From the NCBI RefSeq assembly GCF_020905345.1, contig NZ_JAJJMO010000001.1:2542001-2606000 (forward strand): DNA of 64,000 nt, given 5' to 3'. The stretch's first letter is position 1. Every line of letters begins with the position of its first letter. The notes under the pieces were generated by a model. It was not told where the DNA came from, searched no databases, and was given only the letters and a program-made list of their open reading frames with translations. Positions 6,206 to 64,000 of the stretch are shown here, one piece after another. Position numbers and translations under genes: made by a program. Source of the stretch: Flavobacterium pisciphilum (GTDB lineage Bacteria > Bacteroidota > Bacteroidia > Flavobacteriales > Flavobacteriaceae).

Positions 6206-7594
6206 ATGGACACTATAAAAGCATACGTTCAACAACACAAAGAACGCTTTATCAATGAATTAGTCGAATTATTAAAAATTCCTTCAGTAAGTGCAGACAC
6301 AGCATACTCACAAGACGTTATTGACACATCCGAGGCAGTAAAGGCAAGTTTAGAGAAAGCGGGATGCGATTTTGTCGAAATTTGTGACACTCCGGGCTAC
6401 CCAATTGTATATGGAGAGAAAATAATCGATCCCAATTTACCAACCGTATTAGTTTACGGTCACTATGATGTTCAACCACCAGATCCAATAGAGTTATGGA
6501 CATCACCTCCATTTGAACCAGTTATCAAAAAAACCGAAATTCACCCAGAAGGAGCCATATTTGCTCGTGGTGCTTGCGATGACAAAGGACAAATGTACAT
6601 GCACGTAAAAGCATTAGAATATATGGTACAAAGCAATACCTTGCCTTGTAACGTAAAATTCATGATAGAAGGAGAAGAAGAAGTAGGGTCTAAAAGCCTA
6701 GGATGGTTTGTAGAACGCAATCAAGAAAAACTTAAGAATGATGTGATCTTAATTTCTGACACAGGAATGATATCAAATCAACAACCATCTATAACAACAG
6801 GATTACGTGGATTAAGCTATGTAGAAGTTGAAGTTACAGGACCAAACCGCGATTTACATTCAGGATTATACGGAGGAGCAGTTGCAAACCCAATTAATGT
6901 ACTTGCCAAAATGATTGCTTCACTTCATGATGAAGACAACCATATTACGATTCCAGGATTCTATGACAATGTCGAAGAATTATCATTAGAGGAAAGAGCC
7001 GAAATGGCAAAAGCACCATTTAGCTTAGAGAAATACAAAAAAGCTTTAGACTTAAATGACGTTTATGGCGAAAAAGGATATGTAACCAACGAACGTAACT
7101 CTATAAGACCAACATTAGATGTAAACGGAATTTGGGGTGGATACACTGGTGAAGGAGCTAAAACTGTTATAGCAAGTAAAGCTTACGCAAAAATATCAAT
7201 GCGTTTGGTACCTAATCAAGATTGGGAAAACATTACTGAATTATTCTCAAAACACTTTACAAGCATTGCACCTGCTGGCGTAACTGTAAAAGTTACTCCT
7301 CATCACGGTGGACAAGGATATGTAACACCTATTGATAGCATTGGTTACAAAGCGGCAAATATGGCGTATACTGAAACTTTTGGAGTTCCTGCAATTCCAG
7401 TTCGTTCAGGCGGAAGTATTCCGATTGTAGCATTATTCGAAAAAGAATTAAAAAGCAAAACAATCTTAATGGGATTCGGACTTGATAGCGATGCAATTCA
7501 CTCTCCAAACGAGCATTTCGGAATCTTCAATTACCTAAAAGGAATTGAAACTATTCCATTATTTTACAAATACTTTGTAGAGCTTTCTAAATAG
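6206..7594 (+). CDS. M20-family metallodipeptidase (462 aa)
   Basis: Metal-binding and catalytic motifs of the M20 (CNDP-like) dipeptidases are intact: VYGHYDVQPPDP (His ligand and catalytic Asp), FARGACDDKGQ (bridging Asp), MIEGEEEVGS (general base and Glu ligand), an Asp ligand in LISDTGM, and the last His in IHSPNEHFG. The dimerisation domain lies between about residues 190 and 340. The protein lacks a signal peptide, so it likely hydrolyses dipeptides in the cytoplasm with a two-zinc or Mn centre. Length is normal. It is monocistronic, with its own -7 box and a terminator 20 bases downstream. Confidence 0.92.
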   Translation: MDTIKAYVQQHKERFINELVELLKIPSVSADTAYSQDVIDTSEAVKASLEKAGCDFVEICDTPGYPIVYGEKIIDPNLPTVLVYGHYDVQPPDPIELWTSPPFEPVIKKTEIHPEGAIFARGACDDKGQMYMHVKALEYMVQSNTLPCNVKFMIEGEEEVGSKSLGWFVERNQEKLKNDVILISDTGMISNQQPSITTGLRGLSYVEVEVTGPNRDLHSGLYGGAVANPINVLAKMIASLHDEDNHITIPGFYDNVEELSLEERAEMAKAPFSLEKYKKALDLNDVYGEKGYVTNERNSIRPTLDVNGIWGGYTGEGAKTVIASKAYAKISMRLVPNQDWENITELFSKHFTSIAPAGVTVKVTPHHGGQGYVTPIDSIGYKAANMAYTETFGVPAIPVRSGGSIPIVALFEKELKSKTILMGFGLDSDAIHSPNEHFGIFNYLKGIETIPLFYKYFVELSK

Positions 7595-7614: not shown

Positions 7615-7646
7615 AAAATCCGTTCAGCAATGAGCGGATTTTTTTT
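7615..7646 (+). terminator. Terminator after the dipeptidase gene
   Basis: AAAATCCGTTCA, loop GCAA, TGAGCGGATTTT and a run of T; one G-T pair in the stem. Confidence 0.85.
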
Positions 7647-7648
7647 AT

Positions 7649-7732
7649 GGGCGTTCCCTTCGGTCGGGCTATCCACTATATCTTTTATGCCATTAGCATG
7701 ACAAAAAAGGATACCGCTCCTATCCCTAACGC
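7649..7732. repeat. Intergenic repeat family C, copy 1
   Basis: Starts GGGCGTTCCCTTCGGTCGGG, continues with GCTATCCACTATATCTTTT, then GGATACCGCTCCTATCCC. A shortened copy with the same CTATCCGCTATATCTTTT and AAAAGGATATCGCTCCTATC blocks lies at 42061-42126. Flavobacterium genomes commonly carry dispersed elements of this kind. Confidence 0.7.
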
Positions 7733-7812
7733 ATCCCTGCATACAAGAAAATTTAAATACAAATCATCAGAGCCTTAAGTACTTAATCACTTGTAATTTT
7801 TTTTAAAAATTA

Positions 7813-59678: not shown

Positions 59679-59861
59679 TTATTTTTCACAACACCAATCT
59701 CCAGGATATTGTTTCGAATAAAGTGCTCCACTACAAGTAGCCAAAGGATTAACACAATAGCCTGTTGCCTCAGAATATCTCCAAGCCCCTCCGTTTATTA
59801 ATTTTTGTTCTTTTTTGGTTAATTTTTTGATACCTTCTAAGTTTAAAATGCTTTTTAACAT
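59679..59861 (-). CDS. Double-glycine leader, Cys-rich bacteriocin-like precursor peptide (60 aa)
   Basis: The 25-residue leader MLKSILNLEGIKKLTKKEQ KLINGG (written with a break) has the pattern of double-glycine leaders: L-x-x-x-x-x-L-T-K-x-E-x-x-x-I-x-GG. Cleavage after GG would give a 35-residue core with four Cys, C-X6-C-X13-C-C (YCVNPLATC, then PGDWCCEK). The C39-peptidase ABC exporter and its HlyD partner lie 330 bases upstream on the same strand. Export with leader removal is therefore likely. Bacteriocin, signal peptide or other modified peptide cannot be told apart by sequence. Confidence 0.75.
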   Translation of the reverse strand: MLKSILNLEGIKKLTKKEQKLINGGAWRYSEATGYCVNPLATCSGALYSKQYPGDWCCEK

Positions 59862-59933
59862 AATTTAAATTTTTATAGTTTCGCTAATACCTCAATCGTT
59901 TAAAGACATTTGAGTTTTCTGTCTAATCTTGCG

Positions 59934-59966
59934 CAAGAATATTTTAAATCCTTTTTCAAGCTCAAA
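59934..59966 (-). promoter_or_regulatory. Possible promoter of the precursor peptide gene
   Basis: On the - strand TTTG (59966-59963) and TATTCTTG (59941-59934, 7 of 8 to TAnnTTTG) are 21 bases apart, about 70 bases before the ATG. Weak; if real, the precursor has its own transcript. Confidence 0.35.
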
Positions 59967-60190
59967 CGAATCAGTCGCTTCAAATAGAATATTGTTTTCA
60001 ATTAATTATTTTAAAAACCCAAATGGAAATATTTAAAACACAATATTAAAGATAACAACATAACTAATTAAAAAACAAACACCTATACAAAAACAACAAA
60101 CATTACGAACCTATTTTGTTAAATTTTAAACCTAAAATTTGGTTGATTTAAATTAAAAGAAAATGCAACAAAATGGATGCAACCAAAATT

Positions 60191-61486
60191 TTAATTCTGT
60201 CTAAAAAGACTTCTGAATTGATATAATATTCTTTCTAATAATCGAAGATCTTCAGTAACAATTTCAGCATTACCTTTCATTTCCTGTTGAAAAGGAATCT
60301 TCTTATTATATGATGTTTCTAACCCCTTAGGAAGGGATATATCCAACAACAGATTTCCGTCTTTATCTGGAATAAGGGAAATGTTTTCAACTTTACCTCT
60401 AATAACACCAAACTCTCTATCTGGAAAATTAAACAATCGAATATTAACTTGTTGCCCTAATTTAATTTTTCCTGAATTCTGAGCCTTCGCTTTGGCTTTA
60501 CCAATATACCCTTTTTCAGTATCGGGAATAATCGAGAAAACATTCTCTCCAGAAGTAATGGTTTGGCTCTCTGTCCATACTTGCAAGAATGTAACAACAC
60601 CAGGAATTGATGATCTTAAAGTATATGCTAATTCCCAATCTTTAATCCCTTTCTTTAACTGATAATACGATTGCATCAGATTGCGCTCTAAGTTCACCTC
60701 CTCTTTCGTTCCACTTATTCTAGTACCTTGACTTGATCTAGAGTTCTCTATAAGTGCAGATTTAAGCTGCGATATTGACGAAAGCAAGCCTTTGTAGTTT
60801 TTATCCGCCTGAAGGTAACCTAGCTTTTTATTTTCTAGATCCTGTGTCGAAATAACTCCTTTTGCATATAAGACCTCAAAACGATTAACATCGTTTTTTT
60901 GAAGTTGTAATTCACTTTCATTAATACTTTTTTGCTGCTGCAAAATAGCCAGTCGTTCTTTAATTTGGGTATGCTCAGAATTTTGAGCATTATTTTCAAC
61001 CTGAAAAGGTTGTAGATTTTCATTAAGTTTCCAAGCTGCATAATCCTTTTGGAATACTCCATAAGTACTTTCTAACTCTCCAAACTGCATATTGTTTAAC
61101 AAAGCAAAAGGAAACTCTTTATTTCTGTCATTTATATTAAAATTATCTACTGTGTTCTTTAAAATAAAAACATCTTTATAATTAGCTGAATTTTCAATAA
61201 TTGCAAGTGCAGTATTCTTAGATACTTTTGCTTTGTCCTTTACTAAAATCGCTTCTATTCTACCTGTCGTTTTTGCTACTAGTTTCTCAGGTGGTATAGA
61301 TGTCGTTATACTTATCTCTGTACTTACTACATCTGGATATTTAAGAAACCATGAAACAAAAAACAACATGCATATTATCGCAAAGATCAAAACTGTCCCC
61401 CATCGTATCATCCAATGTGGCACTTTAGTAAGGATATCTTGTACCTCTTCGCTTCTTAATTCAAATTTCGTATTGTCTTCTGCCAT
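60191..61486 (-). CDS. HlyD-family peptide-export accessory protein (431 aa)
   Basis: A cytoplasmic N-terminal 30 residues precede one membrane anchor (about 33-55, WGTVLIFAIICMLFFVSWF), then LVAKTTGRIEAILVKDKAKV (lipoyl half), a long coiled coil (about 120-270) and RSSIPGVVTFLQVWTESQTI with GENVFSIIPDTEKGYIG (second half). The organisation is that of bacteriocin-secretion accessory proteins working with C39-type ABC exporters. Its ATG is three bases after the ABC gene's stop, so the genes are coupled. Confidence 0.9.
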   Translation of the reverse strand: MAEDNTKFELRSEEVQDILTKVPHWMIRWGTVLIFAIICMLFFVSWFLKYPDVVSTEISITTSIPPEKLVAKTTGRIEAILVKDKAKVSKNTALAIIENSANYKDVFILKNTVDNFNINDRNKEFPFALLNNMQFGELESTYGVFQKDYAAWKLNENLQPFQVENNAQNSEHTQIKERLAILQQQKSINESELQLQKNDVNRFEVLYAKGVISTQDLENKKLGYLQADKNYKGLLSSISQLKSALIENSRSSQGTRISGTKEEVNLERNLMQSYYQLKKGIKDWELAYTLRSSIPGVVTFLQVWTESQTITSGENVFSIIPDTEKGYIGKAKAKAQNSGKIKLGQQVNIRLFNFPDREFGVIRGKVENISLIPDKDGNLLLDISLPKGLETSYNKKIPFQQEMKGNAEIVTEDLRLLERILYQFRSLFRQN

Positions 61487-61489
61487 ATT

Positions 61490-63682
61490 TTAATTCCCTA
61501 ATTGCAATTGATTACGAACCAATTCAAAATAATTTCCTTTTTGTTCCACCAATGCCGAGTGACTACCAATTTCGATAATCTTTCCTTTATCTAAAACAAC
61601 AATTTGATCTGCATTCATAACTGTACTTAATCTGTGCGCAATTACCACAACTGTTTTATCCTTGAAGAAAATATCTAATTTCTCCATAATTGATTTTTCA
61701 TTATTAGCATCTAATGCCGAAGTTGCCTCATCAAAAAACAGCATTTCTGGATTTTTATAAACTGCTCTTGCTATTAACAATCGTTGTTTTTGCCCTGTAC
61801 TCATACCAACTCCTTCTGACCCTATTTTGGTATTATAACCTAGTGGCAAGCTAGTGATATACTCTTTAATGTTTGCCACATCTGCCGCATACATCAATCG
61901 TTCTTTATCTATTTTATCAACTCCAATAGCTATATTATTAGCAATTGTATCACTAAAAATAAACCCTTCTTGCATTACCGCACCGATATTATTACGCCAT
62001 GCTTTTTGTGAAATATTTTTAAGCTGTGTATTTCCTATATTAATTTCTCCATTATTTGGCTCATAGAATTTCAATAACAACTTCATTAACGTTGTCTTTC
62101 CACTTCCACTTACTCCCACAATTGCCGTTACTTTATGCGCTGGAATAATTAAATTTAAATTATCTAAAACCGGTATATCTGAACCTAAATAACGATACGA
62201 AAGCTCTTTGATAATAATATCACTATCTCGTGGAATATCTTGCGTCTGATGCTCTTCTTGCTGTACCTCGTCTTCTTTATCATGGATTTCTGACAATCGA
62301 GCTAATGATATTTTTGCATCTTGTACCTCTCGTACAAACTCAATAAGCTGAGTAATAGGACCGTTTAAACTTCCTACGATAGAACTTATAGCAAGCATCA
62401 TCCCAAGAGTAATCTGTCCGTCGATTACCAATTTTGCTGAAAGGAAAATTATAAAAATATTCTTTAATTCATTAATTACTGATGACCCTATTGTTTGTGT
62501 TTGCTCTAAAACTAATCCTTTTATAGAAACTCGAAACAATCTTGCCTGTACATATTCCCACCCCCATCTTTTTTGCTTTTCGGCATTATGCAGTTTTATT
62601 TCCTGCATTCCGTTTATGAGTTCCATAACCTTACTTTGCTCTTGGCTTACTTCTGAGAATCGCTTATAATCTAATTCTTCTCTTCGTTTTAAGAATAGAG
62701 TTATCCAGCCAAAATAGAGTATACTTCCTGCAAAAAACACTAAGAATATCTTAAGATTATAATAGGCTAAAACCCCACCCATAATAATCATATTGATAAC
62801 TGAAAACAGCACATTTAATGATGAAGTGGTAAGAATTTTTTCTATACGGCGATGATCATTTATGCGTTGCATAATATCTCCTGTCATCCTTACATCAAAA
62901 AACGAAATGGGTAAATTCATTAATTTAATAAAGAAATCCGAAATTAATGAAATGTTTATTCGTGTAGATAAATGCAATAGTATCCAGCTCCTTATAAGCT
63001 CTAATCCTGTTCTTCCTGCAAAAAGAAATAATTGCGCAAAAAGGATTAAATAAATAAAATGTATGTTTTGGTTTTGTATTCCAACATCAACAATACTCTG
63101 TGTAAGAAATGGAAAAATAAGCTGTAATAAACTACTCGCTAATAAACTTATACTTAGCTGGATCAGGAACGATTTATATCGCAAAACATATTGCGACAGC
63201 AATCCAAACCCTAAACCTTTTTTATCTTCTTTATCAAAATCGGATTGAAAAAAACGTGGGGTAGCTTCTAATAATAAAGCAATTCCTTCTTGTGTTGATT
63301 CATCTGCATTGTTTCCGATCCAGAACTTAATAAAATCCTTCTGGCTATATTCGATCAACCCAAAAGCTGGGTCTGAAATATAGTAAACACCCTTTTTTAT
63401 TTTATGGAGTACTACATAATGTTCCTTATTCCAGTGCAATACGCAAGGCAACGGAGCTTCTTCAAGACTTTGCACACTCAATTTTACACCTAAAGTTCGA
63501 AAACCAATTTTCTCTGCAGCATCGCTTAAGAATAATAAATTGCTTCCTTCCCTAGTAGTCTCACTAAAATCACGCAGTTCTTGAATGTTTATAGATTTAC
63601 CATAGTACTTGGCAATAATTTTTAAACAGGTAGGACCGCAGTCCTTAAAATCTGCTTGTATATAATTGGGGAATTTTTTCAA
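61490..63682 (-). CDS. Peptidase-domain (C39) ABC exporter (730 aa)
   Basis: Residues 1-130 are a C39 peptidase: Q9, C15 in QADFKDCGPTCL, H88 in LHWNKEHYVVLH and D104 in YISDPAFGLI, so the leader-cleaving site is complete. The transmembrane part runs from about 165 to 440. The ATPase has Walker A GVSGSGKTTLMK, the signature MSTGQKQRLLIARAV, Walker B MLFFDEATSALD and the His-loop VVIAHRLS. The start is a TTG at 63682 (no ATG in frame), giving MKKFPNYIQADF. It should cleave double-glycine leaders and export the core through the HlyD and an outer-membrane partner. Confidence 0.95.
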   Translation of the reverse strand: MKKFPNYIQADFKDCGPTCLKIIAKYYGKSINIQELRDFSETTREGSNLLFLSDAAEKIGFRTLGVKLSVQSLEEAPLPCVLHWNKEHYVVLHKIKKGVYYISDPAFGLIEYSQKDFIKFWIGNNADESTQEGIALLLEATPRFFQSDFDKEDKKGLGFGLLSQYVLRYKSFLIQLSISLLASSLLQLIFPFLTQSIVDVGIQNQNIHFIYLILFAQLFLFAGRTGLELIRSWILLHLSTRINISLISDFFIKLMNLPISFFDVRMTGDIMQRINDHRRIEKILTTSSLNVLFSVINMIIMGGVLAYYNLKIFLVFFAGSILYFGWITLFLKRREELDYKRFSEVSQEQSKVMELINGMQEIKLHNAEKQKRWGWEYVQARLFRVSIKGLVLEQTQTIGSSVINELKNIFIIFLSAKLVIDGQITLGMMLAISSIVGSLNGPITQLIEFVREVQDAKISLARLSEIHDKEDEVQQEEHQTQDIPRDSDIIIKELSYRYLGSDIPVLDNLNLIIPAHKVTAIVGVSGSGKTTLMKLLLKFYEPNNGEINIGNTQLKNISQKAWRNNIGAVMQEGFIFSDTIANNIAIGVDKIDKERLMYAADVANIKEYITSLPLGYNTKIGSEGVGMSTGQKQRLLIARAVYKNPEMLFFDEATSALDANNEKSIMEKLDIFFKDKTVVVIAHRLSTVMNADQIVVLDKGKIIEIGSHSALVEQKGNYFELVRNQLQLGN

Positions 63683-63743
63683 TTTTAAATCTTGTTTTAC
63701 AAGGACAATATAGTATATTTTCTACAATCTAATATAAAATAAT

Positions 63744-63766
63744 AAAGAGGAAATTACATCCTCTTT
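63744..63766 (-). terminator. Hairpin between the right-edge precursor and the exporter gene
   Basis: AAAGAGGA, loop ATTACA region, TCCTCTTT. On the - strand it is followed by ATTATTTTATATTAG; weak T-run, so it may be a partial terminator or attenuator that lets some transcript reach the exporter genes. Confidence 0.5.
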
Positions 63767-63897
63767 ATCATTTTTTTCCAATAAACATAAACCAACTCTT
63801 AACAAATTATAATTTTATAAAGGAATATATTTAACAACAAACCTCTATACTATTTTTACTAAATAATTTAAATAAAACCCTTGGTTTAAGATTTCAT

Positions 63898-64000
63898 TTA
63901 AGGCTCTATAGGTGGATCTATAAGTTCTATACGACATGGAGGAGCACAAGATCGATTGTAGGTTCTACATCTATTTGTAGCAGGATCAATACAATCTATC
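63898..64000 (-). CDS. Second Cys-rich small peptide, 3' end only
   Basis: The frame is open from the right edge to the TAA at 63900-63898. It gives 33 residues, with parts DCIDPATNRCR, YNRSCAPPC and the acidic end IELIDPPIEP; the spacing is C-X7-C-X6-C-X3-C. Strand, position just upstream of the exporter operon and Cys content suggest another substrate of the C39 exporter. The leader lies outside the window, so the assignment is tentative. Confidence 0.55.
   Translation of the reverse strand, partial: IDCIDPATNRCRTYNRSCAPPCRIELIDPPIEP

Follow-up and report, generated by a model that had tools for sequence, protein, structure and literature searches.

Near the right-hand end of the window, by which is meant the whole stretch of 64,000 nucleotides from Flavobacterium pisciphilum that was analysed (G000:C1:2542001-2606000, where G000 is the organism's own genome), lies a locus that encodes an exporter, an adaptor and small Cys-rich peptides with double-glycine (GG) leaders. 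The locus continues into the stretch L009 (C1:2600000-2619999), in which a position is converted to a window position by the addition of 57999, and there it contains further precursors and an enzyme in which a C39-like domain is fused to VKOR and thioredoxin parts, along with a GG peptide that has no Cys and a protein of TPR-AraC type (Table 1). Because the window ends at position 64000, most of the locus was hidden from the original prediction, in which two candidate substrates without shared sequence were placed on either side of a C39 exporter operon that had no modification enzyme.

Table 1. Positions of the genes and RNA elements of the locus, in window coordinates or in those of L009 (aa, amino acids; PCAT, peptidase-containing ATP-binding cassette (ABC) transporter)
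Feature	Position	Strand	Remarks
Class-1 precursor 9	59679..59861	-	Leader MLKSILNLEGIKKLTKKEQKLINGG; core 35 aa, 4 Cys
H-type pseudoknot RNA, 5' of precursor 9	59877..59927 (L009:1878-1928)	-	Covariation
HlyD-family adaptor, 431 aa	60191..61486	-	Pfam HlyD_3
C39-peptidase ABC exporter (PCAT), 730 aa, TTG start	61490..63682	-	Pfam domains; peptidase residues
Class-1 precursor 8, 3' part	63898..64000; full gene to 64077 (L009:5899-6078)	-	
Seven class-1 precursors	L009:6109-6261, 6445-6597, 6688-6846, 6929-7072, 7126-7296, 7343-7555, 7616-7783	-	
Second pseudoknot RNA element	L009:7797-7847	-	
C39-like/VKOR/thioredoxin enzyme, 521 aa	L009:7871-9436	-	
Cys-free GG peptide	L009:9690-9851	+	
TPR-AraC protein, 585 aa	L009:9886-11643	-	

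Exporter, precursors and cysteine parity

When the open reading frames (ORFs) of the window are read, the four features of the original prediction are found where they had been placed on the minus strand. The exporter contains Peptidase_C39, ABC_membrane and ABC_tran domains, all well above their Pfam cut-offs, and the adaptor matches HlyD_3 at 46.6 bits with a cut-off of 22.2. The peptidase residues Q9, C15, H88 and D104, also predicted, do not vary among the peptidase domains that were aligned (15 of 15), and the exporter thereby has the traits of a PCAT, i.e., a C39 domain with Gln, Cys, His and Asp together with ABC membrane and ATPase domains. The original view that Cys-rich GG precursors are encoded beside a C39 exporter was right.

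Precursor 9, with 60 residues, has a GG leader of 25 residues and a core of 35 residues with the spacing C-X6-C-X13-CC, while the core of precursor 8 has the spacing C-X7-C-X6-C-X3-C, both as first described. The case of a right-edge frame without a GG leader, which the original prediction had raised against itself, does not arise: the full leader of precursor 8, MLKKILNLEGAQKLTKNEQKSIKGG, is read past the window edge, and beyond it follow seven more precursors, as had been sought by extension of the sequence. There are, in other words, nine precursors of one class (class 1) and not two substrates. That the cores differ holds true, and the precursors nevertheless share their leader, which rules out two unrelated substrates. 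All nine have in common M1, L2, K3, I5, G10, E18, K20 and G24, and the leader ends in GG in six and in GS in three. Over the 36 pairs the mean identity is 0.67 for leaders versus 0.24 for cores. Going upstream, the core Cys counts are 4, 4, 4, 4, 2, 4, 4 and 6, and precursor 9 has 4.

To see how general this is, consider the relatives of the locus. A scan of named genomes gave 490, of which the best 80 were kept (77 from Flavobacterium and three from Flavobacteriaceae), so that with the own locus there are 81 loci, all with the fusion enzyme by construction. Same-strand cores found by regular expression in these loci number 210, and 208 of them have 2, 4 or 6 Cys; the two exceptions, one with no Cys and one with a single Cys, both have poor leaders. 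A hidden Markov model (HMM) built from the leaders of the 208 cores, and hence from Cys-bearing peptides, finds 272 class-1 precursors, with up to 19 in one locus (L025). Two Cys occur in 35, four in 133 and six in 100, i.e., the count is even in 268 of the 272. The 261 precursors that score above 25 bits have 243 different cores, which fall into 53 clusters at 40% identity, and the count is even in 51 of these (binomial P = 1.6e-13 at 0.5, an approximate value in that the test takes the clusters as independent). When the database is searched with 26 precursors, 851 proteins are obtained, and even counts are found in 119 of the 120 listed and in 110 of the 111 listed matches that come from outside the studied loci. 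The exception, P0194, may be truncated, since none of the contigs from which it is known exceeds 707 bases. Even counts are what one expects if all Cys pair as disulfides. Further out the parity is weaker, with 47 even among 54 rows from distant loci that were picked by hand with two Cys-free class-2 rows and nine spurious-looking rows excluded. One distant locus, L165 (G146:C3:83000-102999), from another genus of the same family, contains 16 Cys-rich GG precursors, 15 of them even. The class-1 cores are neutral to acidic, with a mean charge of -0.96 and one of the 53 at +2.

Although the own exporter is 97-98% identical to those of L024-L026 and the enzymes are 80-86% identical, the cores turn over, and in the comparison with L024 only five of the nine own cores reach an identity of 0.6. 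The NCBIfam leader models do not provide a label for the precursors, as all matches are under the cut-off; for the bacteriocin-like leader NF047798 (Chryseobacterium) the best score is 17.3 bits, with 23.5 required, and precursor 9 has no match to it. The arrangement is not merely due to chance: the precursor 9 protein is matched in 23 of 149 genus genomes, the own included, mostly through the leader, and at six places the match exceeds 60 bits and covers the core. Five of these adjoin an exporter locus: one in G000, one in G355 and three in G004, the last lying 1.6-3.1 kb past the exporter with L025 on the same contig. At the sixth (L214, in G318) there is no exporter within about 9.9 kb. A homologue without an exporter nearby, the second case that had been named as unfavourable, is thus encountered once; since G318 has the locus on another contig, export of this orphan in trans is likely, and the link between precursor and exporter is not refuted. 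A GG peptide at most 1.5 kb after HlyD occurs in eight of the 70 loci with enough sequence, the own included. The own genome also encodes three orphan class-1-like precursors (C1:58343-58540, 969802-969876 and 970248-970361, with 6, 4 and 4 Cys); no exporter is present in the stretches read around them, and two of their leaders end in GK.

The fusion enzyme and its membrane topology

That there is no modification enzyme is correct inside the window and is ruled out for the cassette, which is headed by the fusion enzyme. Its residues 155-274 match VKOR (PF07884) at 54.3 bits, with a cut-off of 27.5, and the other traits of that family, a Cys pair in a loop and a CxxC motif, are present too. The thioredoxin partner gives in the query a Thioredoxin_4 hint at residues 354-409 (18.6 bits, under the cut-off of 23.2). 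In a search of the genome the N-terminal part matches the C39 profile at 23.7 bits, above the cut-off of 22, at profile positions 54-131 only, and because the match is confined to these positions it lacks the half of the C39 domain that holds the catalytic Cys. A C39 match without catalytic residues is what characterizes a C39-like domain (CLD). The genome has two C39 domains, one in the exporter and one in this enzyme, together with one VKOR and one DSBA-family match, and it gives no match to DsbB. Alignment of the N-terminal domain with the exporter C39 domains by HHalign gives an E value of 1.8e-4. When the full enzyme profile is compared with the PDB, the thioredoxin part finds the hypothetical protein 1z6m (E = 6e-6), and entries for VKORs of vertebrate type are obtained as well, e.g., 6wv3 at E = 0.03.

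The enzyme alignment has 213 rows, made up of the query, 120 database proteins, 84 locus members and eight distant loci. C185, C193, C261, C264, C375 and C378 are invariant in all 213. In the column of the catalytic His, 176 rows have an acidic residue (Asp or Glu) and a single row has His, and Cys occurs before residue 118 in 50 rows, with no single Cys column in more than 23. The catalytic residues of the peptidase have, in other words, been lost.

Ordinary VKORs face the periplasm or the lumen of the endoplasmic reticulum (ER). In the present family the hydropathy reveals an extra hydrophobic segment, TM0, at residues 129-147, ahead of the VKOR helices. The mean number of Lys and Arg over the 213 rows is 2.34 before TM0, 0.08 in loop 0-1, 4.78 in loop 1-2, 0.18 in loop 2-3, 2.58 in loop 3-4, 0.15 in loop 4-5 and 5.43 after TM5. 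The charge of loop 3-4 exceeds that of loop 2-3 in 211 rows; the other two are ties and none is reversed. Control VKORs were taken from 247 genomes drawn from the phylum, 59 of which had a match, and gave 30 loci, all of which were read. The 28 controls without a C39-like motif have mean charges of 2.96 in loop 2-3 and 0.21 in loop 3-4, and 27 of them carry more charge in loop 2-3, the exception being L143. The two controls with the motif (L171 and L172) behave as the fusion family, with more charge in loop 3-4. They recur in a set of 24 further Bacteroidota loci, in which 21 genes were scored: loop 3-4 carries more charge in 18, ties are found in L123, L160 and one copy in L173, and none is reversed. 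The split gene of L125, scored at the wrong CxxC, was left out of this set, and three loci had no family match.

When the positive-inside rule is applied to these loop charges, the cytoplasm is the predicted location of the active-site loops as well as of the C39-like and thioredoxin parts, and a reading with six helices places the N-terminal domain on one side with the thioredoxin part. The prediction departs from ordinary VKORs, whose active sites are periplasmic, the loop charges being reversed. The pattern suggests an inverted VKOR whose active sites lie in the cytoplasm, on the same side as the leader.

Neighbours, regulator and RNA element

The gene order is conserved among the 81 loci, with the exporter present in 75 and HlyD in 73. 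The enzyme was found in 12 of 60 relatives, and nine VKOR matches in 21 genomes are all of the fusion type. Exporter and HlyD are present in all eight distant loci, and enzyme and exporter occur together on annotated plasmid records of Aureibacter, Emticicia, Spirosoma and Parabacteroides. L125, with the enzyme in split form, has no exporter within its stretch. In L104, L108, L123 and L124 a related enzyme adjoins DUF6734, LanC-like or glycosyltransferase genes, so that disulfides are perhaps combined with other modifications in these loci. L105 and L108 had been taken as radical-SAM loci, and this was abandoned when Pfam gave LanC-like, DUF6625, DUF6734 and redoxin proteins instead.

In the own locus, family scans covered exporter, adaptor, enzyme, regulator and precursors. 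Reading of the L009 ORF list revealed no LanB/C/M or radical-SAM enzyme, by eye no protein with five transmembrane (TM) segments of the kind seen with bacteroidetocins, and no immunity or TolC gene, no search having been aimed at either of these two. A conserved AT-rich palindrome, ATAATTTATAAATTGTATG, lies upstream of the enzyme gene in the relatives L024-L103, and its 10-mers occur in 66-76 of the 81 loci; perhaps it serves as the divergent promoter or as a box for a regulator.

A second class of GG peptides (class 2) is Cys-free in 199 of 201 cases, occurs in 71 of the 81 loci and is rich in Gly, Pro, Asn and Asp. The TPR-AraC gene and a Cys-free peptide are both present in 70 loci and both absent from six; the regulator occurs without the peptide in four and the peptide without the regulator in one. 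In 70 of the 70 loci with both, the Cys-free peptides are encoded between the TPR-AraC and enzyme genes, and the enzyme gene is on the other strand. One strong TM segment (394-412), followed by a stretch rich in Lys and Arg, is present in the regulator, and a signal peptide is seen by eye, from which it is likely, as far as sequence can tell, that the TPR part is periplasmic and the helix-turn-helix (HTH) part cytoplasmic. Cys-free peptides together with a TPR-AraC membrane protein could form a peptide signalling circuit in a Gram-negative bacterium, and that the peptide is the signal for the protein is our guess.

An RNA element precedes about a third of the class-1 genes. The motif AGACA-N8-14-TGTCT is found in 63 of 261 precursor upstream regions, mostly 39-45 nucleotides before the ATG, and 61 distinct sites were listed and 39 aligned. 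Helix 1 is set by the search pattern and is hence uninformative. Helix 2 pairs the hairpin loop with sequence 3' of the hairpin, as in an H-type pseudoknot, and it covaries: 31 cells are changed on both sides versus 10.2 ± 2.6 in shuffles, none of 500 of which reaches 31, and one pair is seen as CG, UA, AU, GU and GC. This count is relied on instead of a test in which helix 2 was swapped (83 of 159 sites versus a mean of 34.7), which was set aside because palindromic sites were counted on both strands. Across the 81 loci, a model of helix 1 only has 101 matches at E ≤ 0.01, each of them on the strand of the operon, the 39 training sequences matching by construction. Outside L009, 89 of 99 matches lie within 120 nucleotides of a class-1 start and ten do not; the element stands before 89 of 252 precursors there and before two of nine in the own locus. 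The own genome has two strong matches, both in this locus, and five more at E values of 0.09-0.7. No known Rfam family could be assigned, the eight matches at E ≤ 10, in three loci, all being below cut-offs; two of the eight, to mir-15 (E 6-7), overlap an element by place in L025 and L026 (11601-11676) and were taken as chance. The nested fold at one element is unremarkable (z = 0.16), and the program is blind to pseudoknots. The element is possibly a new cis-regulatory RNA.

Known likenesses and the proposed maturation pathway

One machinery and one leader that serve many unrelated cores are familiar from prochlorosin-like families, in which thioether rings are formed; they share the one-leader, many-cores arrangement with the present loci, and the difference is that disulfides are expected here. 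Hatahet and Ruddock are said to have used, in 2013, an inverted VKOR or DsbB in E. coli as a catalyst of general use for cytoplasmic disulfides. The likeness is a VKOR-type oxidase that faces the cytoplasm, here by predicted topology; the difference is its fusion to a C39-like domain within a peptide-export locus.

In type I secretion, the C39-like domain of HlyB is dead as a peptidase and recruits the substrate (PMC6363468). A dead C39 domain is common to both systems, with substrate recruitment shown for HlyB and proposed here, but that of HlyB is part of an ABC exporter, whereas here it is fused to a predicted disulfide-forming enzyme and a separate exporter has a C39 domain with all four residues. 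The bacteroidetocins (class IIf; PMC6671954) are peptides with at least two Cys and GG leaders of 15-16 residues, with a PCAT exporter; 36 peptides are reported in 35 regions, most regions have a thiol oxidoreductase gene, toxin activity falls when that gene is deleted, an immunity gene was not found, and Bacteroides is said to be without general disulfide machinery. Exporter type, GG leader, Cys peptides and thiol oxidoreductase are alike in both systems, and an immunity gene was recognised in neither, here by reading of the ORF list. Here, in contrast, the leader has 25 residues, there are up to 19 peptides per locus, the oxidoreductase is a C39-like/VKOR/thioredoxin fusion, the TM protein of the bacteroidetocin regions was not recognised by eye, and HlyD, TPR-AraC, Cys-free peptides and pseudoknot RNA are added. 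As judged by these features, the bacteroidetocin loci are the nearest known likeness and are set apart by the published leader length, for which reason the present locus is not filed under bacteroidetocins. By term search, the main text of a study of Bacteroidales mining for ribosomally synthesized and post-translationally modified peptides (PMC10352776) does not mention vitamin K, VKOR, disulfide or thioredoxin, and a VKOR phylogeny (PMC4555120), likewise by term search, does not mention peptidase, C39, fusion, Bacteroid- or Flavobact-. The fusion is absent among the matches listed in the literature on VKOR, C39, double-glycine and bacteriocin, a coverage that mostly leaves out subscription journals and bioRxiv. 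The view that peptides of this kind are poorly described was right.

We consider it probable, though far from assured, that the locus secretes diversified disulfide-bonded peptides and that the fusion enzyme is a leader-guided maturase, which oxidizes them on the cytoplasmic face before export. Each precursor, with its near-constant GG leader and variable Cys-rich core, would be held through the leader by the C39-like domain that has no peptidase residues, and the VKOR and thioredoxin parts would oxidize the core Cys and deliver the electrons to quinone. By the predicted topology, both holding and oxidation would take place at the cytoplasmic side of the membrane. Cleavage after GG or GS by the C39 peptidase of the exporter would follow, and the core would leave through the exporter, HlyD and an outer-membrane channel encoded elsewhere, and may act outside the cell in a bacteriocin-like or signalling manner. 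The product is, as originally suggested, probably a disulfide peptide.

A more far-reaching form of this proposal is tentative, and we lean slightly away from accepting it in full. It is that these loci make up a class of cytoplasmic, leader-guided disulfide peptides with an inverted, quinone-coupled VKOR-thioredoxin that has a dead C39 domain, in which the oxidase and, after it, the protease-exporter are recruited by the same leader, the cores are swappable and the genes have their own RNA element, and in which the TPR-AraC protein may sense a Cys-free peptide and switch the array on.

Several observations weigh against leader-guided oxidation in the cytoplasm. The Peptidase_C39 match at enzyme residues 39-114 has by hmmscan 21.6 bits, slightly under the cut-off, the HHalign probability for the C39-like domain is 48%, and the N-terminal domain alone has three PDB matches at E values of 0.3-0.7, with a C39 chain third at 0.7; the C39-like fold is thus a prediction from sequence. 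The 213 enzyme rows are 205 distinct sequences, which are related to each other. The topology is predicted from charge and hydropathy, and TM0 is short. Odd Cys counts are found in four of the 272 HMM-found precursors (L027 13015 with 3 Cys; L062 11871 and L069 11867, short, with 1 Cys; L031 14323 with 1 Cys and a weak leader match) and in seven of the 54 distant rows (in L105, L108, L109, L121, L157, L165 and L174). Six of the 81 loci have no exporter, four of which end at a contig edge (L027, L077, L083 and L094) and two of which are uncut (L096 and L098), and of the enzyme-bearing loci from the wider Bacteroidota 15 of 21 have the exporter within the stretch, one of the other six, L161, being a contig of 6.5 kb. 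The LanC-like and glycosyltransferase neighbours in some distant relatives would, moreover, want free thiols.

Other readings must be weighed against these data. The products could be mainly signals or regulators, with the TPR-AraC protein as receptor in a multi-peptide communication. This is compatible with leader-guided oxidation and accounts for the co-occurrence of TPR-AraC gene and Cys-free peptides in 70 of the 81 loci as well as for the neutral to acidic charge of class-1 cores, unlike that of many membrane-active bacteriocins, but we find it rather unlikely as the principal role, since the strong variation of Cys-rich cores between species, with 53 clusters and turnover, is more weapon-like than signal-like. 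A shade less likely still is that the same disulfides are made in the periplasm, during or after export, with the C39-like domain as a docking part for the exporter or as a relic. Such an orientation is that of known VKORs. The thiol oxidoreductase of the bacteroidetocins is needed for full toxin activity, its membrane side being unstated in the passages on it (PMC6671954). Against periplasmic oxidation stand the loop charges, opposite to those of 27 of the 28 VKORs without C39-like motif, the six-helix reading with N-terminal domain and thioredoxin part on one side, and the fact that a domain for the uncut leader needs the cytoplasm. That the Cys do not form disulfides in the product, and serve instead in metal binding or thioethers with an enzyme that reduces or protects them, is highly improbable: LanC-like and glycosyltransferase genes do occur in some distant relatives, where odd counts are found (L108), but such a reading gives no reason for the near-perfect even parity, and the relay of six Cys is that of disulfide-forming VKOR-thioredoxin proteins.

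If leader-guided oxidation by the fusion enzyme is true, the wider phylum has a dedicated disulfide maturase that is aimed by a leader, is probably cytoplasmic and comes with large natural sets of peptides. Leader-guided oxidation would then be directly testable, and with the help of the enzyme disulfide peptides could be produced within bacterial cells. Attention would also turn to a pool of secreted peptides that is so far unexplored and to an RNA element that has no Rfam match.

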